From: Zygnema cylindricum
Lineage: Eukaryota > Streptophyta > Zygnematophyceae > Zygnematales > Zygnemataceae
Direction: 5' to 3'
Assembly: GCA_037447655.1 (NCBI GenBank)
Contig: JBBHKE010002632.1
Coordinates: 62,001 to 126,000 of the forward strand
DNA: 64,000 bases
Under the pieces are notes generated by a model. The model made no database searches. It had not been told where the DNA came from and saw only the letters and a list, made by a program, of their open reading frames with translations. Below are positions 12,134 through 49,775 of this stretch, one piece after another (within the stretch, counting starts at the first letter, position 1; each line of letters begins with the position of its first letter). The position numbers and the translations under genes are program-made.

Positions 12134-12157
12134 GCGCTCTCTCTCTCTATCTCCAAA

Positions 12158-12177
12158 GCACTAGCTCCGATACCAAT
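12158..12177 (-). other. Copia primer-binding site
   Basis: Directly inside the LTR edge the element strand reads TTGGTATCGGAGCTAGTGC. This matches the classic copia primer site complementary to the 3' end of initiator Met-tRNA (TGGTATCAGAGC), with one mismatch in the core. Confidence 0.75.
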
Positions 12178-12816
12178 TGTAGGATCTTGAGCAAAAGACA
12201 TTCACTCAAAATAATTCACAAAACATAAATCATTTACATAGCGAAAGCTCATAAAAGACAAGAGGAATATTGAGCCAAAAAGAATTATAAGTGTTCTTGG
12301 CCGAAGCCTCTTTACATCATCTCTCTTCTCTCTCTTCTCTCTTCTCTTTAACTTATCTCTTACTCCAAGATTAATCCTCTATGATTCAATCATATAAGAT
12401 TTAATACTCTGCACAAATACATTGCTGCCTATATACTCGCTACTCCGTATTAAGAGACAACAAGGTATGACAAGCAAAACTTAGCGTAGCGACAAAGTCT
12501 GTCCCTAGGTGACTGTGCACTCTTCAATGAAAGTTCCACGAAGGAAGGCGCACGCGCTTTCTTCCTTCGAAACATCTAACTCCAAACATTGACTTTACAC
12601 TTGTCACTTCACGAACACACCTGCACGCAAATTGAAACACCTGCGCACGAAACAAACAAGTGACGCGAAACGAAATAGAACATTTCGTTCGCGGATATCA
12701 AAAGTACCGTCGCGAAACAACGTAGTACTTTTTGTATGATGACGCGACACTTCGCGTCAAGCACACAAATGTTGGTATGACGTTTCGCGAAATGTCACGA
12801 AAACGACAATAACCCA
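12178..12816 (-). mobile_element. Full copia LTR, shared by two tandem copies
   Basis: On the + strand it begins TGTAGGATCTTG and ends ...ATAACCCA. In element orientation it runs TGGGTTATTGTCG ... GATCCTACA, so it has TG/CA ends, 639 bp. It is bounded by a primer-binding site on one side (12177-12158) and a polypurine tract on the other (AAGAGGGGGA on the element strand, 12821-12830). It therefore serves as 5' LTR for the gag-only copy and 3' LTR for the pol-bearing copy. Confidence 0.7.
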
Positions 12817-12832
12817 ATAATCCCCCTCTTAT
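12817..12832 (-). other. Copia polypurine tract
   Basis: Element strand AAGAGGGGGATTATT lies immediately before the LTR start. Position and composition are those expected for the plus-strand primer of reverse transcription. Confidence 0.6.
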
Positions 12833-12892
12833 TGTCGGAATCACCAAACTCTTCAAAATAATCCAAGTTTTGGTCGCCCCCTCTCAAATACA

Positions 12893-15800: not shown

Positions 15801-16040
15801 GGCATAGTTAAGATCCGGGGTTTCGGGAGTAGTAGAGTTGAGAACTCCTCCTCCTCCACTTGAAGAAGCCGATGGAATTCCCTCCGACATTTTGATAAAA
15901 TTGACGGTGAATCCGAAGGTGTTATCCGCTTTCGCTCGTAAAATAACTTTAAGATGCAAAAGCCTCTCCGGTAAAGCATTAAGAAAAACACTTAACTTAT
16001 CCGCATCCAAGATAACTTGGCCATTGTTGATTAATTGCCC
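12893..16040 (-). pseudogene. Ty1/copia gag(partial)-protease-integrase-RT-RNase H, internally deleted
   Basis: Order on the minus strand: Gag C-half with two zinc knuckles (16020-15385, one frameshift near 15760); protease start with altered active site (DMGAS where D-S/T-G is expected) between two stops at about 15390-15310; GAG-pre-integrase (LWHHRMCHTSEVNLKKM) at about 14940-14800; integrase core with SDNGEEF and YSPESNRVAERKNR (14644-13949); acidic linker; RT start (AKWVFKTKTRALG, YKARLACKGFQQREG, FKETYAPVLKFDSLR) at 13531-13260. Here QMDVETAFLNG jumps straight into the RNase H region (GYAFIFG, then SSTESEYMAACHVAK), so most of RT, including the YVDD box, is deleted. RNase H ends at 12893 with KRTKHIRIQWHFVRDLV. 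It is a defective copy in the normal copia gene order. Confidence 0.9.
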
Positions 16041-18714: not shown

Positions 18715-21700
18715 CTCTCGAATAGCACATTTATCGTCTTCCTCATCTTTGTTTTTTTTTCCTTTCGGGAAACCCCAACTGGCTCCCGCTTTCCATCCCT
18801 TCACCAAAAGACACTGAACCCCACCTCCAAAAAAGCTTGTAAATATATATATAAAAACGACTTATAAAACATCAGTGAAATAAAAGATAGAGTAATCATT
18901 ACCAATTAAGTTGCTCGGCTTTAAATTCCATTGACTACTCCACATTATACTATACCATGTAATGAATGGCTTAGTACCGCTTAATTGTACTGATCGCTCA
19001 TGTAAGAGTACAGAAATTGCAATATGACAAACCGTTCAATAAAATATACCGACTACTGTAAGCAAACCAAGGAGTCCACAATATGAACGCTTTGCCCACT
19101 TACTACTAAAGCAAATAGCATAACTTTGCTCCAAAAGTATAAAAACGCCAACGACATTCTTTACATACCATATCACGATTTTAGGAATCATGATGAGTAA
19201 TTAGTATAATAATGTGATGTTTAAATTTGAAAGCAATGAGTCCACTACACCATGTATCATTATTAGGGTTAATAACACTATGCAGTGCCCCAAAAATTAG
19301 CCCTTGAACCTATAATAGTATTTATTAACTACTATTTAATAGTATTAATGAAAACTATTTTTAAAGTTCCGGAAAGTTTGTGTCAATCCATAAAGATTTG
19401 TCCGTTCTGGTGCAAAATTTGTCATTGTGACATCATATAACGACCGAGAAACCATGCAAAGTTCACAGTTCCATTTTCAGTCGAGCGAATAACCTGGACA
19501 AAAACCTACCAAGAAATATGAACACTACAAAATATAAATGTGTGACCTGAAAATTAACACTATTTAACGTCTTTTCGTCAAAATATTGTACATATTTACG
19601 CTATTTTGACTCCCTTAGTGAATAAGCATAAACATTTACATTAACATGCAGGGGTCTTATAAACGTAACTTATTTCGCATACAAAATCAGTAAACAATGT
19701 GGCCATGTTCTAGCGTCGAGTTAAACGTGATTTTTACGATTTTTCTGCAAGCACACACCACGTGGATATCGCAGATAACATTTTCGTGTTTCTGAGGCTC
19801 CAATACTATCCACATCGACAAAATTTATATACTCGTTTTACTTCACATTCCATTTACACTATTTTTCCAACTAGAACTGATAAGTCGGGTTGGGGTTTAC
19901 ACGAAAGGTAACAAATAAAGTGTAAAAGTAACTTTATGTGTTAGAAATGAACAATTGGTGGTAAAAGACCATAATGCGCTGACATAATGTATGTCATATT
20001 ATATGAAAATATATCTTATGACACAGACCTGATTGGGTTAGCATCACTTCTGACAGATTGTGTGGCTTGCACCTAAATTAGCATTAACGCCACACAAAAT
20101 AAAGTTACTTCATTTTAAAGAATATTTATACCCAGTAACACTAAAACATATTTTCCTTTATAACATGTATTTATGAATACAATAAAAACAAAAAGTGGAA
20201 AGATACTTAAAACTTCAATTCAGCACTGACTTAGGCTAGCAACTGCATAACATAAACAATACCCGGATAGAAGCAGTCCAAAAAGGTGTGTATTTGACGA
20301 GGTTAAGTTTAATTTACGGAAGCTATTGGATGTCCAAGCAAAATTCACTAGTTGGAGAAAAAAACAAAAAGACGACTGGCCCAGTACAACATGAGCGGCA
20401 CTACACCGCGAATCGTAATTAGAGTAAATTACTCTAATTCGGTCGCTCAAAATTTCGACTCTATGACATCAAATAGAGTAAATGATTCTATTTTTTTCAT
20501 TATTCTAATTTAAGTAAGGTTTAATTGGCGTAAAAAATTGTAATATAGGTTCGTTTTAAATAGTGTGGAGTACGGACAACGTCTGACCGTGAAAAATTGT
20601 AGTTTTTAAGTGAAAAGGTACATTTTGATGATTTAAAAGAGTCACTTTTGCACGTGAAATCGCAATAAACAAAAAGACTAAATCACATCGGAAAAAGCCG
20701 TTTGCATCCATGTCGTCCGTCGACAGCATCGTCGTCATTGTGTACATTTACCTTAATATCCATGCTAAAATTTTATAGTACAACGACAAAAATACGTGTT
20801 TGCCTTTATTTCCGTAACAAGTTTGTAACAGTTGTTCGACGTTTCGCGTATTCATTTAAAATAGGGAACTTAGCACCAATTTCATAAAAAATGTATTATA
20901 ATATAGGATCGCGCCTGTTTTAGAGTAAATATTAATTATAAGAAAACCCGACTTACCAAAATGACCCTTGAAAGGAGTAACTTTTAACTGTAATATGGGT
21001 TTCTAACCATGATGGCACATGAAATAGAGTAACCATATTGACAAAAATATAATAAATTTACAACATTTGGTGTGGGTGATATATGTCGTGAGGTATCGCC
21101 AAATGCGGGCTGACCTCACAAAATGTAATATTCATGGACCAATCAAAATCACTCTTTCTTTGTCTAATCACAACCGGTCTTTTTTTTTGTTTGTTCACTT
21201 TGGAATTTGATAACCACCGCCATCTTGACTGCGCCGCCATCCGGAAATTCTCTCCAGTTTTTCAGCAAAGATCAATGAAAGTCACGCTTACTTTTTCACC
21301 ACCATGGATCGTACGTCGCCCACGTCATCTCTTTCTTGCTATCTGCTTAATTTCTTAGGGTGGTTATATTTTAAGGGTTTTGTTGTTCGAAATGGCGAAG
21401 AATTTACTTCCAGCGAACTCCACCAATGATGACGAGGCAAGATCCTCCTCTCTTAATGCAGTGGTCGAATATGATATGTCAGAAGTAACAGCCAAAAATA
21501 GAAGGGAAGACAACGAAGGAAACTGGAAAAATATCAAAACACAAAATTGGGAAAGAAAACTTAAAAGACAAAACAGAGTTATTTGTCTAATTATCTGTCT
21601 AATTATCTGGGTAATTTTTTGTCTATTTTAACCTATCTAATTCTCTATCTAATCTAATTTACTATATACTCTAATTATCTATCTAATCTCGTTTCTAATC

Positions 21701-24700
21701 TAATCTAATTATCTGTCTATTTATCTGTCAAATTATCTGTCCAATTATGTGTAAAATTATCTAATCTAATTATCCAATCTAATAATCTGTCTAATTACTT
21801 GTGTAATTATCTCTTTAATTATCTGTCCAATTATCTGTCAATTTATCTAATCAATTTCGTGTTTCTGAGGCTCCAATACTATCCACATCGACAAAATTTA
21901 TATACTCGTTTTACTTCACATTCCATTTACACTATTTTTCCAACTAGAACTGATAAGTCGGGTTGGGGTTTACACGAAAGGTAACAAATAAAGTGTAAAA
22001 GTAACTTTATGTGTTAGAAATGAACAATTGGTGGTAAAAGACCATAATGCGCTGACATAATGTATGTCATATTATATGAAAATATATCTTATGACACAGA
22101 CCTGATTGGGTTAGCATCACTTCTGACAGATTGTGTGGCTTGCACCTAAATTAGCATTAACGCCACACAAAATAAAGTTACTTCATTTTAAAGAATATTT
22201 ATACCCAGTAACACTAAAACATATTTTCCTTTATAACATGTATTTATGAATACAATAAAAACAAAAAGTGGAAAGATACTTAAAACTTCAATTCAGCACT
22301 GACTTAGGCTAGCAACTGCATAACATAAACAATACCCGGATAGAAGCAGTCCAAAAAGGTGTGTATTTGACGAGGTTAAGTTTAATTTACGGAAGCTATT
22401 GGATGTCCAAGCAAAATTCACTAGTTGGAGAAAAAAACAAAAAGACGACTGGCCCAGTACAACATGAGCGGCACTACACCGCGAATCGTAATTAGAGTAA
22501 ATTACTCTAATTCGGTCGCTCAAAATTTCGACTCTATGACATCAAATAGAGTAAATGATTCTATTTTTTTCATTATTCTAATTTAGGTAAGTTTAATTAG
22601 CGTAAAAAATTGTAATATAGGTTCGTTTTAAATAATGTGGAGTACAGACGACGTTCGACCATGCAAAATTGTACACCGCGAATCGTTATTAGTGTCAAAG
22701 TCACTAATTTGGGTTTTTAAAATTTTAATTTTTTTCCGAAGTTAGTATACATGATTTTCGAAAATAAAATAGCAACGCTATTTAAGGACGTGGACCATAA
22801 TCTGCCACGTCTCTCGCACTAAATTAGAATCAATAACACTAATTTTTTTTTTACGCTATTCAAACTTTGACACTAATAACGATTCGCCGTGTACTTTTTT
22901 AAGTAAAAAGGTACAAATAATGATTTAAAAGAATCGTGCTCGCACGTGAAATCGCACTAAACGAAAAATCAATCACATCAAAAAAAAACTGTTCGCATAA
23001 CTCTCGTCCGTCGACAGCATCGTCGTCAGAGTGAACATTAACTGACATTCAGCGCGACAAATAATACTAACGTCATACTGACGTCAAAACTATACGGACT
23101 GACAGATTTTGTACGTCTACGTAATTTAGTGTTCATAACTTCAGCGCGGATAATTATTGCCGACATAACCCAATATAGAGTACTTAAATAAATTAGAGTA
23201 AACTTCCTCTGTGAAAAAGTTCTATCACATAAATTAGAGTTCATTACTCTAATTGTTTTTTTTTGTTTTTTTACTCTAATTTTTTCATTACTCTAAATAC
23301 GATTCGCAGTGTACAGATTTTTTACATTCAATAATTTTGCTTTTCTGCTGAGCATAAAAGAACGGTTGGTAAAAGTACATCGTGCAAAATATTTTAATGA
23401 AAATGGAAAATGGTCATAGTAGTCAATATGATCCAGGAAAAAGAAAATAGAGGATTAAAAAAAAATGGAACAGAATCGAAAAAAAAAAACAAGGATAAAT
23501 CTTTCATACCTTATCACAAGTCTCGTTCAATATAATCGCACCCGTAGTAGGCACCTGAAACTTATACGATGTAAAATCCTTAAATATATTATCTACTTGG
23601 CTAATATAAGGTTGAAGGCTCGCACATTTTTGAAACACTTCGAAACTGGTTAAGGAAGCGTGAAAAACATATCTGATTGGTCCTTGAAAGGATTAGGCCA
23701 TGAACTCTCATCCTTTCCAGCCTTTCCCCTCCCCCCCCCTCACTCTTCCCTTTCCTCCCTCCCCTCCTGTCTCCCACATCCTCACCCTCACCCTCTTCCC
23801 CCTCTCTCCCATATTTCCAAATGCTAGTAAACATTCGGCTGAACAGATAATGCGTTAAATTCTCTGAGACTAAAATTTTAAAGACAAATATCTTCTCTCC
23901 CCTCTTCCCTCTCCCCACCCCCTCCCACCTCACCCTCTTCTCTTTCAATTTTCAGTTTCCAGTGAAATCAGAAACATTCAAAAGGATTGAAAGGATACTT
24001 AAAGCACTGAATTCTCTAAGATTGAAAGATTTGAGGGATGAATCTTGTTCTCGAGTGTTATCTTCGTAGAACCAGTGAGCTTGTTCTATGAGGAACAAAA
24101 TCCGTTCAAATGATTGAAGTTCCTCTAGTGGAACATTAAGTACAAACCGGCTGCCCAAAAAAAAAAAAAAAAGAGGGGCATGAGGAAGGGATGAAAAAGA
24201 TAACAAGGAAAATAAAAAGAAAATGGGCGAAAGTGAACAGTATATTACTAATTATAGAACAAACGACAAAGGCTTGCAGACATGAGTTAGTGTGTAATGT
24301 CAGTTTTTCAAAAAAATTGCAAGTATTTGAGTTTTTTGGGATCTGGGATGTCTTTAAAATGAAATCTAAGAAAAGAATGTATGAACATTCTAAAACAGTC
24401 AAAATTATCAAAATGATCGAAGTACAGATGCTATTACAAAAAGAAGATATGCTTGAAACATGAAAAAGATAAAATAAAAACAAAAATCATAATCAGGGGA
24501 AAGAGACTGAGAAGGAGAGAAAAAGGAAAGGGAGAAAAAAAAAGAGGCTGAAAAGGCAAGTAGAGAGAGAAATGGAGGGACGGGAAAGGAAAGATATAAT
24601 GGGGCAGAGAAGGGGACAGAAGAGAGGAGATGAGGGATGCAAACATAAAAGAGGCCAGATGCACGGAGGAAAAAAGAGAAGACCGAGAGTTAGTTTCAGG

Positions 24701-31102: not shown

Positions 31103-34100
31103 TTAAGCAGCTACCAAAGCATCATCAAGTGCAGCAACACCTGGCAACACCTTTCCTTCTAGAAGCTCCAAGGAAGCACCTCCACCGGTAGAGATGTGGC
31201 TCATCTTCTCGGCAAGACCGACCTTCTCCACAGCAGCAACAGAGTCTCCTCCTCCAATGATAGTGGTCACACCCTTCTCGCTCAACTCGGCCAACTTCTT
31301 TGCAACAGTCTGGATAGAAAAAGACAAAACAACAAACATCAGGACAAAGTCTGGATAGAAAAAAACAAAACAACAAACATCAGGACAAATGATAAAATGA
31401 CAGTAGCTACACCAATTGACTTAAGTGCAAACAAACCTATCAGGTAATCAAAATCAAAAAAAAATCGAAACAAACAAATTTAGCACACTACATTTTAATT
31501 GTATGTAAATATGTTAAGATAGCGACTCAATTGAACAGCAAAATGATAATGAATATCAAAGCCGCCATCACAATAAATGATCCATTGTCAGGTCAATGAC
31601 TCACCTCAGTTCCGACAGCGAATTTGTCGAACTCGAACACTCCCATAGGTCCGTTCCAGATGACAGTCTTGGTGGTATCCAAGGCCTCATTGAAGGTCTT
31701 GATGGCATCAGGGCCAATGTCAAGTCCCATCCAGCCATCGGGAATGGCAGTGGCAGCAACAGTCTGTTAATTTGCACAAAGAAACAATCAAGGTAAGACA
31801 AAATAAGAAGGCAGAAGGTAAACAGAAGCATCGAAAACAACAAGCTCTCTGATCTGCCACTCAAGCCTCCCTGGAAAACTGAAAATTTAAATTATAAACT
31901 TGTTTCAATTCAAAAACAGTGCAAAAAAAAAGATAAGAATAGCATAGTCGAAAAAGATAAAGCTTTTCCATCTGTAGCAAAAGTCTTTCTGAGAATCTTT
32001 AAACTTCAATTTTTGCAAACATAAAGTGTGAATCAAAGAGTAAATGACAACAGTGTCAAATAAAATTTTGAAACCATAGTTTGGAAGGCTACCTTGGCTT
32101 CAGCATCAGGGGCGAACTTGTCAGCCACAACGACATCAGTGGGAAGCAAAAGTTGGACACCCTTCTCTGCGGCCTTCTTCATCAGGGAAGAAGCAAGCTC
32201 CAACTTGTCTTCCTCAACAAGGGAGGATCCGACACTCAAACCCTGGGCCTTGTAGAAGGTGAAGATCATGCCTCCTCCGAGAATGAGGATGTCAACCTTC
32301 TCAAGAAGAGACTCAATAACTCCAATCTTGGAGGACACCTTGGAACCACCAACAATGGCAGCAAAAGGGCGGACGGGGTTGGAGACAGCACCATCCAGGT
32401 AGTCAAGCTCCTGCAATTCAAACGCAAGCTCAAAAATAATAAGTTGAGAACAGAAAAAGTCAGCATACAACAGCATAAGCAAAAAAATAATAACATAACA
32501 AACGATAAAAAACACACACAGACAGCACAGCTCAAACATAACAAGGTAAAGAACGGGGAAAAAAAAGGAACGACAGCACAGCCAAAAATAAGGTGAAGAA
32601 TTGGAAAAAGGCATACAGCATCATAGCTCAAAATATGTAGGCGAAGGATAGAAACAAAGTCAAGACTGCAAAATGAAATTAAGACTGCAAAGAACTAAAA
32701 ATGCATGTTAGCGATGTTTTGCCCAGCACAAATGGCCAATGCCACATGGGCCTACAACGGTGCATCTTAAAAATAATAATGTGAAGAACGAGAACCCAGT
32801 TAAGACTGCATAACATAAGTAACTTGTGAAACCCATCAAACTGCCGAGACCCACCTTCTGCAACAAGAATCCGGCGACTGATGGCTTCAAGAACTCAGTA
32901 ACACCGGCAGTGGAGGCGTGAGCCCTGTGAGCTGTACCGAAAGCATCGTTAACAAAGAGATCAGCATTTTCTGCCAGGGCCTTGGCATGAGAAGCAACAT
33001 TCTTCTCCTCCTCAGGGTAAAATCGGACATTCTCAAGGAGGAGGACACCGCCGTTAGGCAATGCGGCAACCTTCTCTGCGACTTCTGGGCCAATCGAGTC
33101 GTCAGCTTTCACGATCTGCAATAAACATCGGCAGATGAAGCAATTATTGAGAAATTCACACACCAAACAAGAACATAAACCAAAATCTATCACGCACAGA
33201 AATTAAGATATTATACACAATCAATAAAAAACATTTGAATTTGCATTTCCTTCAATGAATGAAATGCAGCGATCACAATTAGATTTGGAATGTAAGTGGT
33301 TTAATTAGGGATCGAGTACACCCACTTGTAATATAACAACAAACAAACCTTCTAATGATTGAGTAAACAGTGTAGTCCATTGCTGAAAGGGATATTACAG
33401 GCATTTCACTAATTTTAGCTGATTGGCAAAGTAGGCTTACATCGAATCCAAGCAACTCAGAAATACGGGCAACAAGAGGGGTAAGGCGGAACTTCTCGGT
33501 GACACCCTTGGGTCGGCCCTGCAAATCAAGAGAGTGGTGACGTCAATCACTGATACTTCCGATTGGTTAATAAAAAAAACCATAATTCTAGAATACGATC
33601 TCATAGAATAGCACCAAAACAAAAACAGCTTATCATCCTTTCCATAGAGGTATAGCATACACGGCAGAGTGAAACAGTGAAAGAAATATCCTTCAGAATG
33701 CAATCTCATGGAATGGCACCAAAAAAAGAATCAAATGCCCTGTTCAAGCGGTTGACACATCAAGAGATCAGAAAAATAATCACATTTGCCACAAATCGGC
33801 AGGAAAGTGAACCTTGAAAGAGAGAAAGTTGCAGAGAAGTAAAAACTTACAAGATGGCTGGACAGAAGGACCTTGGCGCCCTTCTCAACAAGGTACTTGA
33901 TGGTAGGGATGGCAGCTCGGATACGGGTATCATCGGTGATGTTGAAGTCAGCATCCAGAGGAACATTCAAATCAGCTCGGACGAGCACACGTTTTCCTTT
34001 AAGATCAGCCTCGGTTAAATCACCTACGCTCTTCTTTGCCATGGAAACGACAGCACGGGTTCCCTTTCCAGCCTTTGCAACGTGTGCAGCAACTGTGGAA

Positions 34101-34303
34101 ATGAGATCGTGCTCAACTTCGAAGATGTTGTTGAACTTTTGCATATCTTTCCTACCGGCAACAAAGCCATTGTAGGAAAGAAGGTTACCGGAACGAGCAG
34201 CAGCTTTCACGGAAACGCGGGCGCTTCCGGATGTAGCTTTAGCGGAAGTTGCGATTCCGGAGAAAGCGGCGACTCCAGTAAACGTAGCTGTAGCGGCAGC
34301 CAT
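31103..34303 (-). CDS. PGK1: Plastid phosphoglycerate kinase, complete, six exons
   Basis: PGK interconverts 3-phosphoglycerate + ATP and 1,3-bisphosphoglycerate + ADP; a plastid copy serves the Calvin cycle. Exons: 34303-33851, 33518-33441, 33115-32855, 32410-32093, 31763-31605, 31309-31103. All have GT-AG introns and lie in phase 0, so every exon is a whole number of codons; the product is 491 aa. Residues 1 to about 85 form an Ala/Ser/Lys-rich extension ([20 protein letters not shown]) consistent with a plastid transit peptide. The enzyme starts near [12 protein letters not shown], with the PGK signature [10 protein letters not shown] at about 107-116. Other landmarks are [50 protein letters not shown] and the nucleotide-binding [13 protein letters not shown], then [17 protein letters not shown]. 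No lesions. The start ATG has a good context (AGCAATGGC). Confidence 0.97.
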
Positions 34304-36690: not shown

Positions 36691-37611
36691 AACTGGGGCA
36701 TAATGAATACTGTAAACCACACTATTTATGTGACTTCAAAAATAAATAAAAACACAAAATTGTCAAAAGATCAAGAACTTCAAAGAAAAAAAAAAGGTCA
36801 TATTCTCAAAATTGTAAGAAAGTGCTGGTCAAGGGAGAACAGGGAGGGACAGAGCGGAAGGGGGAGGGAGGAGGAGAATGAGGGAGAGAGGAGGGAGATG
36901 GAGCGTAAGGACGACATGGAAAAGCAAACGTGGGGTTTTTTTATTTGTTTTTTATTGTGGTTTTTTTAGGTTAGTTGGATGAGTTTTCAAAAAAGACAAA
37001 AAGTTTGACATTTGTTTCTGATAATTAAAAGTACAGAATGTCACGGCACCTTCTGAAAAAGGAGAGTAAATCATCCGTAATCTTGAAAAAAAGAATATTA
37101 ACAATCTTATTAGTAAATTATTTATTTATTTATTTATTTTATCGAATATTCCTGTTATCATATTTTGAAACAAATTCTTCTGAAAAATTGACCAAAATAT
37201 TTATTTTTATATTGAACTGCTTATTACTTTTTAAGTTCCAACAAACAATTTTTGAAGTAAAAAAAGGGATATACCGTTTTTTTGCCACTTATCCAGGATG
37301 AGATACGAGTGCATAGTAATATCTGGTCTTAATATTATTGCTTAGATCAAATCTTTAATATACTACTAACAAAATCTTCAAATTTATAACCTAAAATTAT
37401 TTATTGAATCAGTTCCGAATTCGTCTGGGTGGATATTACATTAAGGTGCAAGTGATATATTGACAATGTATTGGTATTGTTTGGTATCAAAAGACATAAT
37501 TGGTTTCCTTAGTATGAAGCACATGATAAATTTCTCGAAAACTGATTGGATTTTATTGGACAAACTGAATTGTTCATATCCAAATAATCAACCAAGTTGT
37601 TCTTGTGATAA

Positions 37612-38610
37612 AAGTTTAGATATTCCAAGTATATAATGTAGCTTAGGTTCTCCAAGTACATTATGCAGCTTAGATTCTCCAAGTATATAATGTAGCTTAG
37701 ATACTCCAAGTATATAATGTAGCTTAGATTCTCCAAGTATGTAATGTAGCTTAGATTCTCCAAGTATATAATGTAGCGTAAATTCTCGAAGTATATATTG
37801 CAGCTTAGATTCTCCAAGTATATAATGTACCTCCGGTTCTCCAAGTATATATTTTAGCTTAGATTCTCCAAGTATATAATGTAGCTTAGGTTCTCCAAGT
37901 ATATAATGTAGCTTAGGTTCTCCAAGTATATAATGTAGCTTAGATTTTCTAAGTATATAATGTAGCTTAGATTTCCAAGTATGTAATGCAACTTAGATTC
38001 TCCAAGTTTATAATGCAGCTTAGAATCTCCAAGTATATAATGTATATTAGATTCTCCAACTATGTAATGTATCTCAGGTTCTCCAAGCTCCAAGTATGTA
38101 ATGTAGCGTAAATTCTCCAAGTTTATAATGCAGCTTAGAATCTCCAAGTATATAATGTAGCTTAGGTTCTCCAAGTATTTAATGTAGCGAAAATTCTCCA
38201 AGTATATACTGCAGCTTATATTCTCCAAGTATATGCTGCAGCTTATATTCTCCAAGTTTATAATGCAGCTTAGAATCTCCAAGTATAAAATGTATCTTAG
38301 ATTCTCCAAGTATATGATGTAGCTCAGGTTCTCCAAGTATATAAAGTAGCTCAGGTTCTCCAAGTATATGATGTAGCTCAGATTCTCCAAGTATATAATG
38401 TAGCGTATATCCTCCAGATTCTCCAAGTATTTAATACAGCTTAGTTTCTCCAAGTTTCAATGCAGTTTAGATTCTCCAAGTATATAATGGCATAAATTCT
38501 CCAAGTATATGTTGTAGCTTAGATTCTCCAAGTATATGATTAGCTCAGATTCTCCAAGTATATAATGTAGCTTAGATTCTCCAAGTATATAATATAGCTC
38601 AGATTCTTGC
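37612..38610. repeat. 27-bp minisatellite, about 37 copies, coding-compatible on the minus strand
   Basis: The unit includes CTCCAAGTATATAATGTAGC followed by TTAGATT. At 27 bp it equals nine codons, and on the minus strand it reads as repeats of YLENLSYII. Two long open frames result (38453-37854, 199 codons; 37844-37509, 111 codons). No signal peptide, splice support or unique flanking domain was found, so I treat it as non-coding until shown otherwise. Confidence 0.85.
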
Positions 38611-39152: not shown

Positions 39153-39156
39153 AGGT

Positions 39157-40075
39157 TGTCATGCCGTAAGATGTCAGCGGGTATTGTGGTTAAATCGGGT
39201 ACTAATTGAAGTTTCGGTGACGTGACAGGTTCATATCCGAGGGTACAACTAGAGATTCGTACGGGACAAAGGTCGGAATATACTCTCGTACAGTACCACG
39301 GGAACACGATGTGAAATCAGGGTGGAACTGGACCGCGGTACGGCATCAGACGTCAGGAATTCAAACGGCTACAAACCTGACAGGTGTTTGAAGTCATGAA
39401 CCCTTGGAGGTTCATGCATCATTTTTGCTTAGCTTAGGGAGGGTTTTTATCCTCGAGGTGTAGATGTAAGGCAGTCCGAGGTGGCCACGCAGCGGTCGTC
39501 TCTTGAAACTGGCAGCGTTTTAACATATAAACCTGCCTACTCAAAGACATGTAGGAATTAGTGTAGCCGTACGGATTAGTGAAAGCATAGGATAAATGCC
39601 ATTTGGCGAGATAGTAACTTTTGCAAATTAAGTACGGGAATCCAACATTGGAAGGTTGTCCTTTTCTGACAAGCATTATTCTCGGGATTTGTCGAACTCA
39701 GTGACAGGCTAGTTTTTGAGTTAAGGTTTTTTCCTTTTTCAGACCCATAGTTTTATGCTAGTGATTGTCTCTGAGTTTTTTCCTTCTCTTTGTACTAAGA
39801 CCTTACCTAATCTACCGGCGCAAGCCAGCCTGCAAGGTTTCCCTCCATACTATCTTCTACTTGCTGTGATTTGTGAGTTGTGTCTGTGGATTTGGTGTTT
39901 TCTTGCTGTCTGGACGCTGACCGTACGGGCTGGTACTCACCTTGTCTGGCCTTGGAGGAATACCGATTATCTCGGCTCTTTCATCCGGCTAAGGAAGGGT
40001 TCTTACCAGCTCATTGGACTCCTGTAGGGAATATTGATGACTTCAGGGCCTAGTGGCTACTATCGCAAATATTCC
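39157..40075 (+). repeat. Terminal repeat segment A1
   Basis: Matches A2 (48616 onward) at a constant offset of 9459 with about 1% substitutions, up to GTCGCAAA/ATTCC. Unlike A2 it is not followed by the B segment but by the internal region. Small ORFs inside it (39434-39676, 39755-40027) are mirrored in A2 and are not considered genes. Confidence 0.92.
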
Positions 40076-40437
40076 CGTACTTAATTTGTTTCTTTCTAAT
40101 TTTCTTTATTCCTTTTGTCAATTGTTTTCTTTCTGTCTAGTTTATTTTCATTCGTTTCGTTTCTAATTTTCTTTATTCCTGGTATCTTCTGTCTAGTTTG
40201 AATTGAATTTGTTGAAATTAAATTAAAAATAAAAGAAAAAAAAAGAAAAAAAATAAGTATAATATTTTTGTTATGCTTTGATTCCATTTTATTTGTTGCC
40301 TACTTTGTTTTTAAGTTGCTGAATTTGAGATTGTTGAACTGTCCGGTATCGTTTTCTCTTCTTTCTTCCTTCCGGATTAACTCACTCAGAAAACCTAGAA
40401 AACTTGAAAACTCATAAAAAAAAAAAAAACCTAAGTA

Positions 40438-40475
<38 letters not shown>

Positions 40476-41281
40476 TTAGGTTGCACGAATTATCACGAAA
40501 ATTCTCATTGCTTTATAGACGGGCAGAGCGTGGCATAGTGCTGATGCGCGTGCCCTAACATGCTACTAACTACGTTGGTATTCTGAGCTGTGATCTCTTT
40601 CTGACGATTCGGAATTGGAGGGAGGTTGGAGCATCGCTGGGAGACCTTACCGATCGCTCCAAGTGAGTAATCGGGTCCTTGTGGTTGTAGACGCGTGATA
40701 GGTTGTTAAGCGCGATAACCTAGAGGGGTTAGGATCCGACCAAAGGCTGTGCCTTCCTTTCCACATAGGCATTGTGGTTGCATTTTCTTTAGATGTGACC
40801 GTGATTGGTCTTGGATAGCGACTTCTTGTCTATTACATCTGGCCTTGTTGGGCCAGTATAATTTCTTGTTTTATTTCATCTGGCCTTGTGGGCCTTAGAT
40901 AGTTTCATGTTTTCTACATCTGGCCTTGTGGGCCTTGAATAGTTTCCTGTTTTATTAAATCTGGCCACAAGTGGCCTTACATAAGTGACATGTTTCTTCT
41001 TGGAGTGGCTTGAAGTGACTTATTGTGGTATTGCTTAGATCTGGTTGTGACAAGCCTTGTTAGGGGTGTTCACGATTAGACTAACCCCTGTGATACATAA
41101 TAGATCAAATCGTTTGGGGGTGCTTGGTTGCGTGGGTTCTTGTTTGCTTGAATTTAAAGACTTCCTGTGTGACGTGTGACGTGATCAATAGATCTGGCAG
41201 TGGGCATATGCCCACTGACCTTGAGTAGGGTTTGACATCTAGTTGCATCCGGAGAGGACGACCGGACTACTGTCTGTTTAC
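40076..41281 (+). other. Leader of the gypsy-type element
   Basis: Non-coding. It contains T-rich repeats (TTTCTAATTTTCTTTATTCC twice, near 40090 and 40160), an (AT)n microsatellite at 40441-40471, and about four units of roughly 46 bp built on ATCTGGCCTTGTGGGCC at 40825-40985. A weak primer-site candidate TGGTATTCTGAGC lies near 40578. No clear tRNA-primer site adjoins A1. Confidence 0.5.
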
Positions 41282-43000
41282 ATGCCAACAGACTGGAACA
41301 ATTTACCGTTTCCAACCGGTACCACTAAGAGCTCCAGTTTTTACTGTGGACCAGATCGGGATTTGATTCCCGCCCGCTCACCTCCTTTCCAGCTTTTAGG
41401 TCATACTGGTCAGTCTGCTCAGTCTCATTTTACGGGTTCACCTGACTCTAGATCTGGTATTACCAGCACGTATAGATCTACTTCATCTGTCTCCTCATCC
41501 TCTTCCCATAGCTGAGGGGAAGATTCAGACATAGACTCCCTTGATATCCGGGATCTAAATCTACCACCTTCGCTTTTTCCTTTGAGCGAAAATATACACA
41601 CTAACTCCGATTCCTATTTTGTGGATATGGCCTCGTCCATAGACAGCGGAGGAGGTAGAAATCAGTTTTGTTTTTCGGGTCTCAAGGACACTATGTCCTT
41701 GTCACATTTTCGAATGCTTTTTGATACCGAGATGCGCGATCCAGCATTCCGGTATCAAGACCGTTATGATTTACGGGTTGCTTTTTCGTTACTTGGGCGA
41801 TACCTTAGGGGATCTGTCCTATCTCTATATACACGAAAATATGCGGCAATTTGTGTTATGACAGAATTGGCACCCGCATATTCTGGATCTTTAGCCATAA
41901 CAGGCAACCCAGAAATTCTTTTCCAAGTTGTTGTACCCGCAGAATTCTTTTCCAAGTTGTTGTACCCGCAGTTTATGACTCAGGCAACAAAATTTCACCT
42001 AAAATACCTGAGGTCCCTCATCAGTTCGCCGTTGCGGCTCGGGTTGGATTTCCGGCCCGCCCTGCAATGTTGGTTCCTTTAAGGGATCCAGTATCATTTG
42101 TTTTCGGTTTATTACAGGAAGAGTACCGAATGCAGAACCCCCATCAAGTTAAAGAACTAATGAATTTCGAACGTCGCCCAGGCGAAACCGCCCCGGCATT
42201 GCGGGCGCGTATAGAAACATTACGCGAAGCACTCGCAGAGGCAGTTCAGAAATTTGTGGGGCAATTTCCCACCCAATCTCGACGTTTCATTCAAAGCCAT
42301 TTGACTGAGGCATATGGCCTCAAATTTACCTTCGAGCAGGCTGCAGAGTATGCCGTACGGTATGAAATGCAGACCAGCTGGTGGGACGCTCATGAGCGAC
42401 CCAAATCTTCTCCTAATACAAACCCGAATCCTAATCCTAATCCACGCAACCCATGGCCCAATACGAGACCCCTAAGGGCTCCAGCCATGGGAACATTACC
42501 AACAACCCCCTGGTGTTCGTATATGCTTTCGATGTGGTAACAGCGGTCACGACGCACGCGGCTGTCCGGATAAGACTGCCACGTGTACTCATTGTAATCA
42601 AACGGGTCATTATGTACATCGATGTCACATTAAGAATCCCGATTTCAGTTATCAAAATCAAATCAAAAACGGCGGTATACCTGCTCGATCGGCAAAATTG
42701 GTTACTCCACCCAAGGGGGTAGAGAAAGACAACCCTCCAAAAATCAGTAGTAGGGATCGAGAGAAAGCCCAGATGCAAGCTACCGTGGCGACCATGATGA
42801 AAGAACAGTTTGCCGCGCTTATGGCGCAGGTCAAACCGCAATTAACTGGAATGGCTCGAACCGTGGTCCATATGCCCTCTTTCGCTGGGCGATCTCTTCG
42901 GGGGTTCGCTGTTCAAGAGCGGGCAGCTCAGTTTAAAGGGACTCCCGATCATAATCGCGAGTCAAAATCCATTAACACACGTATTCCACTATCATTTGCT
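41282..43000 (+). pseudogene. gag of the gypsy-type element, double CCHC zinc knuckle
   Basis: The first ATG in the usable frame is at 41282. The frame has a stop at 41513, continues through a capsid-like region (MSLSHFRMLFDTEMRDP, then LLQEEYRMQNPHQVKELMNF and RRFIQSHLTEAYGLKF), and ends with two zinc knuckles at about 42520-42620, CFRCGNSGHDARGC and CTHCNQTGHYVHRC. Two frame changes occur. One is caused by a 29-bp tandem duplication at about 41914-41971 (AATTCTTTTCCAAGTTG repeated). The second lies in an Asn-Pro repeat near 42430. The family role is packaging of element RNA. Confidence 0.8.
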
Positions 43001-43612
43001 AAAGAACCCCGCTCACCGATTCCAGAAACATCCTCTAGCATCACCGCTAAAGCATTAACAATCCTAGAGAGGAGCATACAAGACACTTATAAGGTCAAAG
43101 AACGTTTGTCAATCTTGTCCACCATGCTCCTCGAGTTGGATATCAACGAAAAACATGTAGATCTTACTCCTTCAGCGTTTGCGTTACAGGCATTACAAAA
43201 CCATCGTCATGCTCTCTCCCTTCAAGCTATTACTTTTGAAGAGCGTTCTAGCCTCACTCCTCACATCAGTTTTCTAGATAACAAATTGGGCGTGTTCACA
43301 GTGAATGGGTTTGCTCCGGCACTTCCTCTCATGGATACAGGCGCAAAGCCAATTATCCTCGGTTTAGATTTTGCAATCAAAATAGGTCTTACGGCAAAAA
43401 AGCTACAACCCACTACCACACGTCTGTTGACTTCCGTAGGTACCACAGAACCGGTCCTCGGAATTACAAAGGAATCAGTCTGTTTCCAATTTCAGAGTCA
43501 GTCAGAGATAAATTTAGCACAAATATATGCCCACGCCTTCGTCACCAAGTGTAGTGATTATGAATGCCTTGTCGGCCAAGACGTAATTTTCCGCGTAGGG
43601 GGTGGGGGTTGA
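43001..43612 (+). pseudogene. Aspartic protease of the gypsy-type element
   Basis: In frame with the zinc-knuckle part of Gag. The active-site motif is LMDTGAKPII at about 43330, followed by a pepsin-fold-like C-terminal half ending DYECLVGQDVIF. The frame ends in a G-run at 43597-43608 (GGGGGTGGGGG), where it passes to the next frame, either by frameshift or as damage. It would process the polyprotein. Confidence 0.75.
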
Positions 43613-45131
43613 TATGCACGATCAAACATTTTCGTACAGACCGAACAACTTTTCGGAACGTAAAATTTGCTTACCCCTTATCTCGGCCCGGCAACCCATG
43701 CCTACCACGGCCCATTCGGCGCTGGTCTTGCCAGCCTATGCCGCAGTTGGCATAGTTGCAGACATCCTTGAATCTCTAACAGCGGATGAAATCTCACCAG
43801 ATTCCTCGAGTTTACCAGAATTATTTAGTACACCCGGATTTACCATTGACTCTTCAAATTTTGACCGACTATATCAATTTACTATACCAATTCCCTTATC
43901 TAGTATTCCAGATCCACCCTCCATTACGATAGATCCTTCCGAGTTCTTGCCCATTAAATGGACACCGATCATTTTACAACCTCACCAAAACGGTCTCGTT
44001 ATCTTAGACCTTTTTGCAGGAATAGGGACTTCACTTCTTTCTTGCCTTCGGAACGGTCTTCTGATAAAGCATTACTATTCCGTAGATATTGACCCCTTGG
44101 CTAGACGCGCTCAGTTGCAACACTGTCAGGTCTTGCACGAACATTATCCTCATCTATTACCCCAGTCTACGTTTCACGATATGCATTCGGCGTTGCCACA
44201 AGATATCCGGCTAATAGGAAATCACAATTTAATGGAATTGGAACCAATTGATCTCCTCATTGCCGGATGGGAATGTTAGGGTATGTCTAGGGCCGGGAAA
44301 GGTTTAGGTCTCGCAGATCCGCGTACTAAGCTGTTCTTCGAGGTGGTTCGTCTGATCCACTTCTTCCAAAAACTGGATCGTTCTTTCGGATACATCCCAG
44401 AAAATATCGCAGCTTATAATGATCCCCGACCCACGGTTCTCGCAGATTACAAACGCATTGAATCATTGATTGGACCACCGTTAATTATCGATGCCGCACG
44501 CCACGGTTCGTTGGCCCACCGGGTTCGTTCCAAGTGGACTAACCTGGTGGACATGGGTCGGCTCCGAGAAGCTAACCTCGCTGTCCGACCACCTAACCTT
44601 TCCATTCAGGATGCACTTCTTCCATTTCATAAGGTCCAGACATGTATACAGACAGACTATCCTCCTGCATTTGGTCTTAACATCCCGGGCCAACCACTAC
44701 GTGCACTGCCTACACTAGTTGCATATCCACATTCTCACGCATACTCACATAATGGACCGGACATGCTTCAGAATACTCATACAGGCAGCTTAGAAAAACC
44801 TACTGCCGCAGAACGAGAACATCTTTTACATTTCATCTCAGGCACCATTGCTGCTCCAGGACTCACCGAGCGGCAGCGTTGCATCTTACTCGGTCGAGTC
44901 ATGGACCCCCAATCATTGTCATTCGTCTTTGGCATGGGGTTTGCAGCTAGCCGATACGCACAGAAGAATCCTTCTCAATCACCTAGGGGGGGCATTCACC
45001 ATTTAAACATACAGCATCCAAATCCTCACCCTCTCTTTGGGGTACAACTTTTCAGCTCGATCTTTTTCCTTTCCCCGCTAAGTCTGACACAGATCACACT
45101 GTTTATGATTTTTTGGACCCTAGTCACATGA
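43602..45131 (+). pseudogene. DNMT-type C5-cytosine methyltransferase domain embedded in the retrotransposon
   Basis: One frame with a single TAG at 44277-44279. C5-methyltransferase motifs appear in order: motif I VILDLFAGIGTS (SAM binding, about 43998), motif II-like YYSVDIDPLARRAQ, IDLLIAGWEC at motif IV (catalytic Cys present, Glu instead of Pro before it, stop directly after), GMSRAGKGLGLADPR, RTKLFFEVVRLIHFF, motif VI FGYIPENIA, motif VIII-like HGSLAHRVRSKWTNL, and a C-terminal LTERQRCILLGRVMD like motifs IX-X. In the family the enzyme transfers methyl from SAM to C5 of cytosine in DNA. The domain lies between protease and RT of the same polyprotein. The stop inside motif IV makes this copy inactive unless it is read through. 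Confidence 0.88.
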
Positions 45132-45268
45132 GTTGGTCTCTCCCAGCATACACGGCCGCTAGATCTCAGGTACCGGTACGGACATCACCACACTGGACAG
45201 CTGCATTTCCGTCTAGAAATTGGCATCACGCAGTAAATTGTTTGCATCAGCTTCTTGTCGAGTAAGAG

Positions 45269-46134
45269 TTGGGTCACTCCTTGATAGCAGATGAACAGCT
45301 GGCATTTGCACAAGCCATGGAAGCTATGACCATTAACACGCCTGAAAAACTGACATGGAAATTCGGAACTGGACTGACAGAAACTGAACACGGACTGTTA
45401 AATGAAGTCAAACCGAAACGTAGACGCATTTGCTTTCTCCGTGAAAGACTCAGGTCGACACACCACTTACAAAATGTCTATTGACTTGGAAGATGACAGA
45501 CCTATATTTAAGCCCAAGCATCGCCTATCCGAAACTGAATGGGAATCTGTGGACAAACGATGCGCAGAGTTAGAAGAGGCAGGTCTGATTTAAAGGTCCG
45601 ATTCCACCTTTGCGGCTCCTACCGTCATGCCTCGCAAGAAAGACGCGGAGGGGAATTTTACAGAACGTCGCATGTGTGGGGACTATCGAGAACTGAATTC
45701 ACGTACAATCCAAGACCGACATCCAATGCCCTTGGCCGAGGACATTTTTGATCACATGGGCGGAGCTAAATATTTTAGCATCACAGGGATTTAATCAGAT
45801 CGAAATAGAGGAAAAAGATCGACACAAAACTGCATTTTGGGGTAGTGACGGACATTGGGAATGGGCGGTTATGCCTTTTGGACTGAAAAATGCACCAGCA
45901 GTATTCCAGAAAGTCATGGACTCAGTTTTGGGGGGATGTAAGTTTGCCCGTTGCTCTATTGACGATCTAATCATCGCTTCAGCCTCTATAAAGGAACATG
46001 CAGTGCATATAGAGTGGGTGTTGAAGGAATTAAAAAAGGTAGGACTTAAATGTCATCCTGCCAATGTACCTTTGGGGCCGAAGGGGTTCCATGCCTTGGG
46101 CACTTTATCTCATCTGAGGGAATTACTCCACTAG
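45269..46134 (+). pseudogene. Reverse transcriptase of the gypsy-type element
   Basis: The pre-RT linker DDRPIFKPKHRLSE and WESVDKRCAELEEAGLI is followed by a stop at 45591, then RT blocks FAAPTVMPRKKDAEG, RRMCGDYRELNSRTIQDR, PMPLAEDIFDHMGGAKYFS, a small deletion and frame change near 45775, GFNQIEIEEKDRHKTAFWG, MPFGLKNAPAVFQKVMDSVL. The catalytic box reads SIDDLII where Y-[IV]-D-D is expected, so the tyrosine is lost. A further frame change lies at about 46060. The order and spacing are those of Ty3/gypsy RT. Confidence 0.9.
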
Positions 46135-47984
46135 AAGTCAAAGTGGAAGCAATTAGTAAACTACCGGCCCCAACTGATTTGACTAGCTTGCGTGCATTTC
46201 TGGGGTTAGCCAATTATTACCGACGGTTTGTTCCTAGTTTCAGCACACTTGCATCTCCATTAAATGAACTCTTGAAGAAATCTGTCCCGTTCACGTGGGG
46301 ACCCTCTCAGATCGAGGCATTTCAGGGATTAAAGGACGCACTGTCCACCGCTCCTATTCTTCGTCCCCCGAATCATAAGTTGCCATTTTGCCTACAGACG
46401 GACTTTGGTAAGCCCGGTATTGCAGCCATCCTAACTCAGCGTGAACTCACAGGTGAGGAATATGTGGTGGCTTATGCCAGTCGGAGCAACAACCAAGCGG
46501 AGTCAAATTACAGTAGTTATGAGGGGGAGTGCGTTGCCGTAGTTTGGGGTATTGTGCATTTCCGACATTACCTCTATGGCAAGCCTTTTACCCTTCTTAC
46601 TGACCATCAACCGTTGCATTCGCTCATGACCAATGACAAGCTATCCGGCAAATTAGCCCGTTGGGCTCTTATTTTACAGAAATATGATATGGAAAATATT
46701 CACCGACCCGGGCTCCTCAGCTTGAATGCCGACGGGCTTTCCAGGAATCCTTTGCCCTACTCCATTGATAATGGGGTTCGACAAGATTTTGAGGGCGAAA
46801 CGGTTGCCTCCCTATCGGCTGGAGCGCATCTGATCTACAATTTTTCCGCACCTACATATCATAAAACTGAACACGATCCATGGCGGGACAGCCCTTTGAT
46901 CTTTTTCCTATCCACTCAGTCTTTTCGGGCGGGCACCGTACAAATGGAAGAGGAGCGTGTTCGTAAGAGAGCCCAGAGTTACTTGTGGATGGGGGGCTCA
47001 CTTATTCGTCTTCTCTCGGATGGAAGTCACCGGCACTTCCCACGACCGATGGAACGACTATCACTTATTAACCAGATTCATACTGACCTTAGACACTATG
47101 GCACCAAACGGACTTTGAGCTTGGTACAAGCACGGTACTGGTGGTTCGGCATGCAGGCTGATGTGGCGGCTGTGTTGCAGGAATGCAGCACCTGTGACCG
47201 GCTACGAACTTCATTTTCTAACCGACAGACCTCCCTTCAGTCCTTGCCTATTCGGGGTCTCTTTTACAGGTGGTCGTGTGATCTTGCAAGTCCGTTTCCC
47301 ATTTCTCGAAGGGGCAAGCAGTACATTATGATTATGATCGAAAATTTCAGCAAATGAGTGGAAGTTGTGGCCCTTTCACAAAAAACTGCCAAACTCACCA
47401 CGGCAGCTTTCAAAGAGCATGTGCTTCTCCGATATGGAGCCCCCGCAGAAGTACTTACCGACCAAGGAACCGAGTTCCGCGGTGAATTTCAGGAGATGCT
47501 GGACGAGGCGTTAATCGATCACCGACGGACGAGCCGAGATCATCCTCAAGCAGACGGTTTGGCAGAGAGAGCTGTACAAACCTTTAAGCGTGCTTTGCGT
47601 AAACATTGCTTGGAAAAACAGATTACAGTGTGGGATGAATCATTGGGATATATTGTCATGGGTTATCGCATGTCTGTACAGGCCAGCCTGGCAAATTTCA
47701 GCCCCTATTATGTGTTGTTTGGTCGAAAACCACTATTAGGAAGGAATGTACAGAAAGCCGCGAGCTTACCTCTACCTCTTATGTCTGATTCTTTGTTTTT
47801 GGAAGAACTAACTAACCGAGCGTTGCTTTTTGCTAGAGAAATGCCCATGGCTTTTGAAAACCTGCAGATTGCCCAACATCGCGACTCCTTACGGTTTGCG
47901 ACGACTCGCAGTGGCAGCTACCGACCACAAACAAAAACCCTTTCGGGTGGGGGATTACGTTTATTTGCGACGGCAAACTTTTGA
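46050..47984 (+). pseudogene. RNase H and DDE integrase of the gypsy-type element
   Basis: One frame with a TGA at 47355. The RT thumb (LRAFLGLANYYRRFVPSF) precedes RNase H (FCLQTDFGKPGIAAILTQ, YASRSNNQAESNYSSYEGE, LLTDHQPLHSLM, GLLSLNADGLSR). The integrase zinc-binding region (HTDLRHYGTK, YWWFGMQADVAAVLQECSTC) and catalytic core follow: first Asp in WSCDLASPF, second in TDQGTEFRGEF, Glu in QADGLAERAVQTFKRA. The stop sits between the first and second catalytic Asp. A frame change near 47925 leads into the C-terminal domain. This is a DDE integrase, not a tyrosine recombinase. Confidence 0.92.
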
Positions 47985-48351
47985 TACACTCGACACGAAT
48001 GTGTCAGCTCACATCTTGAGGATAACAAAAATCAACCCCAATGGATTATTAAGCCTACAAGGGGCCGACACGCGAACATTGCGGGAGCATTCGAAAAATT
48101 GCGCCCCTTGCTATCTTCCCGATCTTTCCCACAGCATGGACCCGTGGCGGATGCCAATTACCGAGGCCATTGAGTGCCAATTTTGCCGGCGGTCTGATGG
48201 AGAAACGTTAATGCTCCTATGTGACTATTGCAATCTGGGATTCCATATAGAGTGTTTGGTTCCACCTCTACACACTATCCCGGCTGGACAGTGGTTTTGC
48301 CACGGGTGTCGCGATATACCAGCTGTCCTTACCAGCTCCCCCGCAGGCTAA
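47925..48351 (+). CDS. Integrase C-terminus with PHD finger
   Basis: The frame continues from the integrase after a frame change: FRVGDYVYLRRQTFD is the usual SH3-like integrase tail, followed by a linker and a C4HC3 PHD finger at about 48175-48309. The ligands visible are CQFC, then CDYC, then HIEC, then WFCHGC, with the conserved Trp before the last pair. It ends at TAA 48349-48351, seven bases before a G-run. Many gypsy elements (chromoviruses) carry a chromodomain here; a PHD finger would be an alternative histone-reading module for targeting (inference). Confidence 0.85.
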
Positions 48352-48354
48352 GGA

Positions 48355-48368
48355 GCTGGGGGGGGGGG
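48355..48368 (+). other. Polypurine tract candidate (poly-G)
   Basis: AGCT then eleven G directly precede segment B1. Position suggests the plus-strand priming tract, although nearly pure G is unusual. Confidence 0.45.
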
Positions 48369-48613
48369 AATTACATCCTTACTTACCTGATCTTGTCTTG
48401 TCTTTTATTTTTTTGCTAAGTCCATGTGTTCGGAATAATTTGCTTGTTTTTCGGGCATATTCATTTATTATTTCTTGCAGTATATATGCTTTGTACTCCG
48501 ATTGTGGTCACAAATACTGTACATATGTAATGGTCATTCATTTTCTGGTGTTTATCGGTGACCCACGCGGGATGTGATGCATGCCATTCACGATTGTACT
48601 GTCATGCACGACA
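48369..48613 (+). repeat. Terminal repeat segment B1
   Basis: 245 bp matching B2 at about 96% (CATCCTTACTTACC ... GTCATGCACGACA). It is followed by GC and then A2. The B1-A2 junction CACGACAGCTGTCATG holds a perfect 10-bp palindrome, GACAGCTGTC. Confidence 0.9.
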
Positions 48614-48615
48614 GC

Positions 48616-49771
48616 TGTCATGCCGTAAGACGTCAGCGGGTATTGTGGTTAAATCGGGTACTAATTGAAGTTTCGGTGACGTGACAGGTTCATATCCGAG
48701 AGTACAACTAGAGATTCGTACGGGAAAAAGGTCGGAATATACTCTCGTACAGTACTACGGGAACACGATGTGAAATCAGGGTGGAACTGGACCGCGGTAC
48801 GGCATCAGACGTCAAGAATTCAAACGGCTACAAACCTGACAGGTGTTTGAAGTCATGAACCCTTGGAGGTTCATGCATCATTTTTGCTTAGCTTAGGGAG
48901 GGTTTTTATCCTCGAGGTGTAGATGTAAGGCAGTCCGAGGCGGCCACGCAGCGGTCGTCTCTTGAAACTGGCAGCGTTTTAACATATAAACCTGCCTACT
49001 CAAAGACATGTAGGAATTAGTGTAGCCGTACGGATTAGTGAAAGCATAGGATAAATGCCATTTGGCGAGATAGTAACTTTTGCAAATTAAGTACGGGAAT
49101 CCAACATTGGAAGGTTGTCCTTTTCTGACAAGCATTATTCTCGGGATTTGTCGAACTCAGTGACAGGCTAGTTTTTGAGTTAAGGTTTTTTCCTTTTTCA
49201 GACCCATAGTTTTATGCTAGTGATTGTCTCTGAGTTTTTTCCTTCTCTTTGTACTAAGACCTTACCTAATCTACCGGCGCAAGCCAGCCTGCAAGGTTTC
49301 CCTCCATACTATCTTCTACTTGCTGTGATTTGTGAGTTGTGTCTGTGGATTTGGTGTTTTCTTGCTGTCTGGACGCTGACCGTACGGGCTGGTACTCACC
49401 TTGTCTGGCCTTGGAGGAATACCGATTATCTTGGCTCTTTCATCCGGCTAAGGAAGGGTTCTTACCAGCTCATTGGACTCCTGTAGGGAATATTGATGAC
49501 TTCAGCCCCTAGTGGCTACTGTCGCAAAATTCCATCCTTACTTACCCGATATTGTTTGTCTTTTATTTCCTTGCTAAGTCCAGGTGTTCGGAATAATTTG
49601 CTTGTTTTTCGGGCATATTCATTTATTATTTCTTGCAGTATATATGCTTTGTACTCTGATTGTGGTCACAAATACTGTACATATGTAATGGTCATTCATT
49701 TTCTGGTGTTTATTGGTGACCCACGCGGGATGTGATGCATGCCATTCACGATTGTACTGTCATGCACGACA
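48616..49771 (+). repeat. Terminal repeat A2 plus B2 (uninterrupted unit)
   Basis: The uninterrupted A+B unit, about 1156 bp, with TG...CA ends. It shows what the A1/B1 unit looks like without the coding region between A and B: ...TCGCAAAATTCCATCC.... If A+B is an LTR this is the intact one. Confidence 0.85.
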
Positions 49772-49775
49772 AGGT

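Follow-up and report, generated by a model that had tools for sequence, protein, structure and literature searches.

Why would a retrotransposon carry a methyltransferase of the type with which hosts silence such elements through DNA methylation? The question is raised by a stretch of 64,000 nucleotides from Zygnema cylindricum (contig JBBHKE010002632.1, positions 62,001 to 126,000; hereafter the window), in which a single Ty3/gypsy-type retroelement occupies positions 39157-49771 on the plus strand and holds a cytosine methyltransferase domain at 43602-45131. We consider it probable that this is a Ty3/gypsy-type retrotransposon with a captured DNMT3-type methyltransferase in its gag-pol, that the enzyme acts on cDNA or chromatin, and that the unusual repeats of the element are long terminal repeats (LTRs) permuted by way of joined ends.

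The methyltransferase stretch consists of two open reading frames (ORFs), 43602-44279 and 44283-45131, which lie in the same frame with a TAG codon (44277-44279) between them; the catalytic domain covers about 43977-44990. When the halves were searched separately against Pfam, the second matched PF00145 with E=0.065, and the first gave nothing for DNA_methylase even with E values up to 1 admitted. Joined with an X at the stop, they matched PF00145 over residues 134-254 only, scoring 42.5 bits (E=7.2e-11) where the cut-off is 22. A sequence search of the PDB placed DNMT3A/3B on top (E 5e-9) and HhaI far lower (E 0.008), and DNMT3A/3B are the nearest solved enzymes by fold as well. Motif I (ILDLFAGIGT), the motif-IV cysteine (GWEC), ENI, AHRVRSKWTNL and a motif-X-like tail are readable, in the order I-IV-VI-VIII-X that DNMT3A/3B also have, with no DRM-type rearrangement in the window sequence. 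The domain differs from the DNMT3A/3B catalytic domain in having GWEC where those enzymes have SPC, in being only about 25% identical, and in that no ADD or PWWP domain was matched. In our tree the element methyltransferases form their own clade (100/99), whose sister group is unsettled among rows that included two DNMT3 pieces and left out DNMT1, CMT and DRM. Homology supports the presence, within a gypsy polyprotein, of a DNMT3-type C5-cytosine methyltransferase. An earlier note, made by reading the window alone, had placed a cytosine methyltransferase at 43602-45131 and named its SAM-binding, GWEC, ENI and tail motifs; the coordinates and motifs are correct, and the profile search that it had proposed gave a match above the cut-off.

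The polyprotein order is gag, protease, methyltransferase, reverse transcriptase (RT), RNase H, integrase and PHD finger. A gag region with broken frames (41582-42540) is named by its position, with ORFs only and no Pfam gag match, and two CCHC zinc-knuckle motifs (42524-42625) were read by eye without a profile match. The following ORF (42698-43612) contains an aspartyl protease at about 43298-43465 (PF13650, E=0.0077, below the cut-off). Downstream of the methyltransferase, Pfam identified an RT piece (45748-46131; PF00078, 1e-16), an ORF with the RT end, RNase H and the integrase zinc domain (46050-47357; PF17917, 1.7e-34, and PF17921, 1.4e-13), an integrase core piece (47358-47984; PF00665, 1.1e-4, below the cut-off) and, 3' of the integrase, a C-terminal PHD finger (48175-48309; PF00628, 4.2e-11). 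The order of protease, RT, RNase H and DDE integrase is that of Ty3/gypsy elements, the rve match coming from a broken piece in the window; plain LTRs at both ends are absent, and split repeats A ... B-A-B are found in their place. The window copy is dead: a TAG directly follows the motif-IV cysteine (GWEC and the premature stop, 44265-44279), the methyltransferase is out of frame with the protease, and RT and integrase are split. The position between protease and RT that the earlier note had given to the domain is right, while its claim that the domain lies in line with them does not hold for this copy.

The host genome (352.8 Mb, 2689 contigs) contains many relatives. A search with the first half of the methyltransferase domain, in which 150 of 1516 candidates were scored, gave at least 152 matches. 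Twenty copies were fetched from these matches, in two parts per copy, and analysed in detail together with the window copy (n=21); all were selected by the methyltransferase domain, so that the number of relatives without it cannot be read from them. The protease lies 5' of the methyltransferase in 20/20 fetched copies and the RT lies 3' of it in 18/20, the exceptions (C866 and C46) being cut off. A PHD finger is present in 17/20, only partially so in C2053, and in C9 about 1 kb of inserted sequence separates RT from integrase. In one copy an unbroken frame runs through 2395 codons, and its A repeats are identical. A private insertion of the methyltransferase into one copy, a case raised by the earlier note, is ruled out, since the domain has the same position in all twenty fetched copies. 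The retroelement itself had no copies in the viral and other genome contig collections searched, where three viral loci carried different methyltransferases.

A separate search of the genome with PF00145 gave 123 matches above the cut-off (123 scored of 782 candidates); judged by eye, these are of two patterns. The one place read for the second pattern (L052, L053; G000:C544:127300-133250) holds another gypsy lineage, with a methyltransferase before the RT and a PHD-like C-terminus.

Pairwise ratios of nonsynonymous to synonymous change (dN/dS, Nei-Gojobori) over the 21 copies indicate selection. Pairs with saturated dS (those between the main families), with dS below 0.02 or with too few codons were excluded, so that 89/210 pairs enter the methyltransferase counts, and pairs overlap in copies and are not independent. 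For the dS bins 0.5-1, 0.15-0.5 and 0.02-0.15, the median dN/dS of the methyltransferase was 0.100 (21 pairs), 0.210 (47 pairs) and 0.386 (21 pairs). Corresponding medians were 0.087, 0.126 and 0.128 for RT, 0.092, 0.115 and 0.152 for RNase H, 0.069, 0.201 and 0.249 for integrase, 0.095, 0.199 and 0.535 (3 pairs) for the PHD finger, and 0.131, 0.321 and 0.447 for the linker before the methyltransferase. Higher values in close pairs are the expected outcome of decay after insertion. Both methyltransferase and PHD finger are under selective constraint in related copies, and the methyltransferase has been retained during multiplication of the element, with a strictness close to that for RT in the most distant bin and below it in the nearer bins.

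A further question is how such an element inserts; its repeats are not those of a standard LTR element. Repeat A1 (39157-40070) begins TGTCATGC and ends at the primer site; the right end consists of B1 (48369-48613), A2 (48616-49528) and B2 (49529-49771), which ends GCACGACA. A1 and A2 are 98.8% identical, and B1 and B2 96%. The outer ends are TGTC...GACA, and the bases AGGT flank the element directly on both sides (39153-39156 and 49772-49775). A plain LTR pair (39157-40075 and 48616-49533) was tried as the boundary and rejected: it gave no target duplication, and adding the second repeat gave the correct outer ends. The B-A-B right end is present in 14/21 copies, and C605 has B with part of A. 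Three copies (C783, C2577 and C2053) have A on the left and B on the right without the full B-A-B, and C866, C46 and C1042 are truncated or rearranged. Target duplications were sought in the 13 copies for which both the start of A and the end of B were available, the other eight lacking one or both ends in the sequence analysed: the 4-bp duplication is exact in 8/13, agrees in three of four bases in 3/13 and is missing in 2/13. In the ten canonical copies with both outer ends it is exact in seven (window AGGT, C1344 TTGG, C704 ACTC, C742 AAGT, C829 AAGG, C1915 CCCT and C1063 TTGT), and its last three bases agree in C2573, C449 and C78; the internally deleted C2053 has GTGG on both flanks. In the left part of copy C1798 (L035), an inverted A repeat from another family of this element was seen, pointing to nested or adjacent insertions.

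Three further features concern replication. First, the B1/A2 junction GACA-GC-TGTC (48610-48619) is exact in 10/14 B-A-B copies. Second, a purine-rich tract (48352-48368) stands directly 5' of B1, with a G run at this place in 13/13 copies printed. Third, the putative primer-binding site at the end of A1 (40071-40088) is the reverse complement of a segment in the middle of A1 (39624-39641) over 18/18 nt, as against at most 10 nt in 72 control stretches from the same element. Such a self-complement, of 14-21 nt and in four letter sets, was found in 8/10 copies tested, where the longest match in control stretches was 9-13 nt; the two copies without it are C704, whose A1 end was misplaced in the test, and C78, an old copy. 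A transfer RNA primer was considered and discarded: the primer site has no TGG start and the self-complement is present instead. The pattern looks like that of a self-primed element, and priming would be self-templated.

These features suggest the following cycle. If the G run marks the start of B and the primer site the end of A, the LTR would be B-GC-A, and ordinary self-primed LTR reverse transcription would make the DNA copy. Its two ends would then be joined, and the integrase would cut at GACA-GC-TGTC inside the LTR, so that two ordinary LTRs yield the split repeats A-internal-B-GC-A-B. Circle-forming insertion sequences use abutted ends in this way and offer an analogy for the paired ends GACA-GC-TGTC. 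The methyltransferase may travel with the RT and methylate, de novo, either new cDNA or the chromatin at the insertion site, and the PHD finger may read the histone H3 tail and guide the integrase. In its fullest form, this account has a gypsy lineage that writes and reads its own chromatin marks and an integrase that opens the end-joined copy at paired ends inside the LTR, a route of which we found no description for LTR elements, the split repeats being permuted LTRs that arise afresh with each cycle; we put it forward tentatively, as somewhat less than an even bet.

The repeats could also have been inherited in the manner of DIRS or PAT elements. The order A1 (39157) ... B1 (48369)-A2 (48616)-B2 (49529) is that of PAT-like/DIRS elements, and split direct repeats are present here. 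On this explanation the transcript would run from A1 to B2, the B1-A2 unit would act as a splint that restores the ends, a circle would form, and an integrase would insert it in place of a tyrosine recombinase. The same repeat order is stated for KnitGypsy-Dnmt3, a gypsy element of Klebsormidium nitens (PMC5890265). Random cutting of joined LTR ends should also produce the alternative order A-B-GC-A-internal-B, which occurs in 0/15 copies with a left A start, with no B before A; its absence favours DIRS-like inheritance. However, a joint between A2 and B2 copied from RNA should be constant within a family, whereas a joint made anew in each cycle, as the permuted-LTR model predicts, should vary. 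The joint differs in 14/14 copies, within families too, and its length varies as well: A2 has lost more than 200 bases at its end in C1407 and almost 600 in C9, as far as the border with B2. Little weight attaches to joint differences between families, whose A and B repeats are themselves unlike; between C2573 and C829 the joint differs by one letter only, which mutation could explain. The start of B1 at the G run and the end of A1 at the primer site are also LTR-like borders. DIRS/PAT elements use a tyrosine recombinase and leave no target duplication; the window element has integrase domains and 4-bp duplications, and Pfam on the window ORFs gave no tyrosine recombinase, no separate search having been aimed at it. 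We regard inheritance of this kind as unlikely, with roughly one chance in four.

A different doubt concerns what the methyltransferase does. Motif IV reads GWEC in 21/21 copies: the cysteine is kept, and glutamate stands in place of the proline usual in C5-methyltransferases, so that the Pro-Cys pair is absent. Motif VI is EN in 19/21 copies, and motif I is readable in all, although damaged in a few old ones. The window copy and C2573 share a stop at the codon right after GWEC. Among database relatives, WEC was found in P0002, P0008 and P0009 and WDC in P0003, and PC in the five prokaryotic relatives aligned; the second gypsy lineage of the same genome (C544) has GWPC. On this distribution, most of the clade has an acidic residue next to the nucleophile where proline is usual. 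Also noted was P0012 (870 aa), a phage-like cytosine methyltransferase interrupted exactly at the motif-IV cysteine, apparently by an intein (PF14890).

The change from proline to glutamate may mark a shift to another use, such as RNA methylation or a non-catalytic role. Its constancy in the copies, with three WEC and one WDC in the database relatives against GWPC in C544, would fit such a shift, as would the yeast assay of the Klebsormidium enzyme, which gave no methylation; human DNMT3B failed there too and the authors called the result inconclusive (PMC5890265). Against it, the catalytic cysteine is kept in 21/21 copies, EN and the SAM motif are retained, and the change leaves the nucleophile in place. 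We hold a non-standard role to be improbable, though worth keeping in view. That a piece of a host gene landed here by chance, as a domain useless to the element, for which the broken window copy might speak, is highly improbable in view of its fixed place in 20/20 fetched copies, its dN/dS near 0.1 and the long open frames.

For traces of methylation, 25 pairs of repeats belonging to 15 copies were compared. The rate of C/T differences per C was 0.052 at CG, 0.0515 at CHG and 0.031 at CHH, an excess of about 1.7-fold at CG (p=0.0006) and CHG (p=0.004) over CHH; other changes were equal at CG and CHH and leaned higher at CHG (p=0.05). No CpG depletion was found, the observed/expected ratio being 0.86 inside the element and 0.87 outside. 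The C/T excess is consistent with methylation of inserted copies by any enzyme, and host methylation fits equally well. Self-methylation of new copies by the putative methyltransferase is plausible, and the suggestion in the earlier note that methylation limits excision finds no support in the analysed data.

The closest solved relatives of the PHD finger are those of PHF12, BAZ2B and KDM5, with ATXR5 within the first fifteen. Several of these are readers of histone H3 unmethylated at K4, and the element finger is without the tryptophan that K4me3 readers use. A PHD family at least nine-fold larger has been reported for a 360-Mb Zygnema strain (PMC9915684). If that strain is the host, one might guess that elements with a PHD finger explain the enlargement.

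Several points weigh against the reading of the element as a gypsy retrotransposon with an active captured DNMT3 and permuted LTRs. Its enzyme activities are predicted from homology, the usual motif-IV proline is missing, and the Klebsormidium enzyme gave no methylation in the assay above. The window protease and integrase core score below Pfam cut-offs. The sample is 20 of at least 152 matches, every one picked by the methyltransferase domain itself, and the between-family pairs drop out of the dN/dS counts through saturation. C783 and C2577, with A on the left and B on the right, have no target duplication, and the alternative repeat order was not seen.

DNMT capture by gypsy elements is no oddity of a single alga; in this genome the captured domain is abundant, selectively maintained and apparently of long standing. 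A writer of methyl marks and a histone-reading finger are combined in one transposon, and the GWEC and GWPC lineages of one genome provide a clean natural comparison for the role of the captured enzyme. The repeat anatomy leads to a testable account of split direct repeats in an element with a DDE integrase, and suggests a new insertion route.

The window contains other features. An array of 27-base repeats (37461-38522) lies just upstream of the element. A phosphoglycerate kinase gene in exons (32036-34303, minus strand), whose first exon has a long, plastid-like N-terminal extension, points to a green host. A copia-type element (10755-16038, minus strand) has direct repeats 93.7% alike, gag, a zinc knuckle and integrase pieces. 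A pair of 826-base direct repeats (19776-22673), 98.5% alike, encloses 1.2 kb without a long ORF and has no clear target duplication.

Among known systems, gypsy elements of the Tf1/sushi type are self-primed, their primer site being complementary to an upstream piece of their own transcript. The primer site of the window element likewise complements an upstream segment of the same transcript, but its integrase ends appear to be placed within the LTR-like unit. Chromoviruses have a chromodomain at the position where the window element has its PHD finger. In the titles and abstract starts searched, we found no description of gypsy elements with split repeats and an integrase, or with PHD fingers, and nothing on gypsy DNMTs after 2018 except a remark in a 2025 paper (PMC12344493). 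The core of our finding is not new, as capture of a DNMT3-type domain by a gypsy element has been known since 2018 in one alga, Klebsormidium nitens; this is the report to which the earlier note had referred, and it describes KnitGypsy-Dnmt3 (PMC5890265). Our searches turned up no earlier description of the repeat anatomy, the PHD finger or the changed motif IV. Our element was compared with the published description of KnitGypsy-Dnmt3, a charophyte gypsy LTR element whose Pol ORF includes a DNMT3-type domain and which shows a DIRS-like repeat arrangement and purifying selection; the main text of that paper contains no mention of PHD, zinc finger, target site, primer binding, self-priming or proline (PMC5890265). 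In the work of De Mendoza and colleagues, silent copies of KnitGypsy-Dnmt3 carried methylation in CHG and CHH (PMC5890265). SymbioDIRS-Dnmt3 and SymbioLINE-Dnmt of dinoflagellates are also retrotransposons with a captured cytosine methyltransferase, and the SymbioDIRS-Dnmt3 enzyme methylates CG in yeast (PMC5890265); they have DIRS and LINE backbones, whereas the element of Zygnema is a gypsy element with a DDE integrase.
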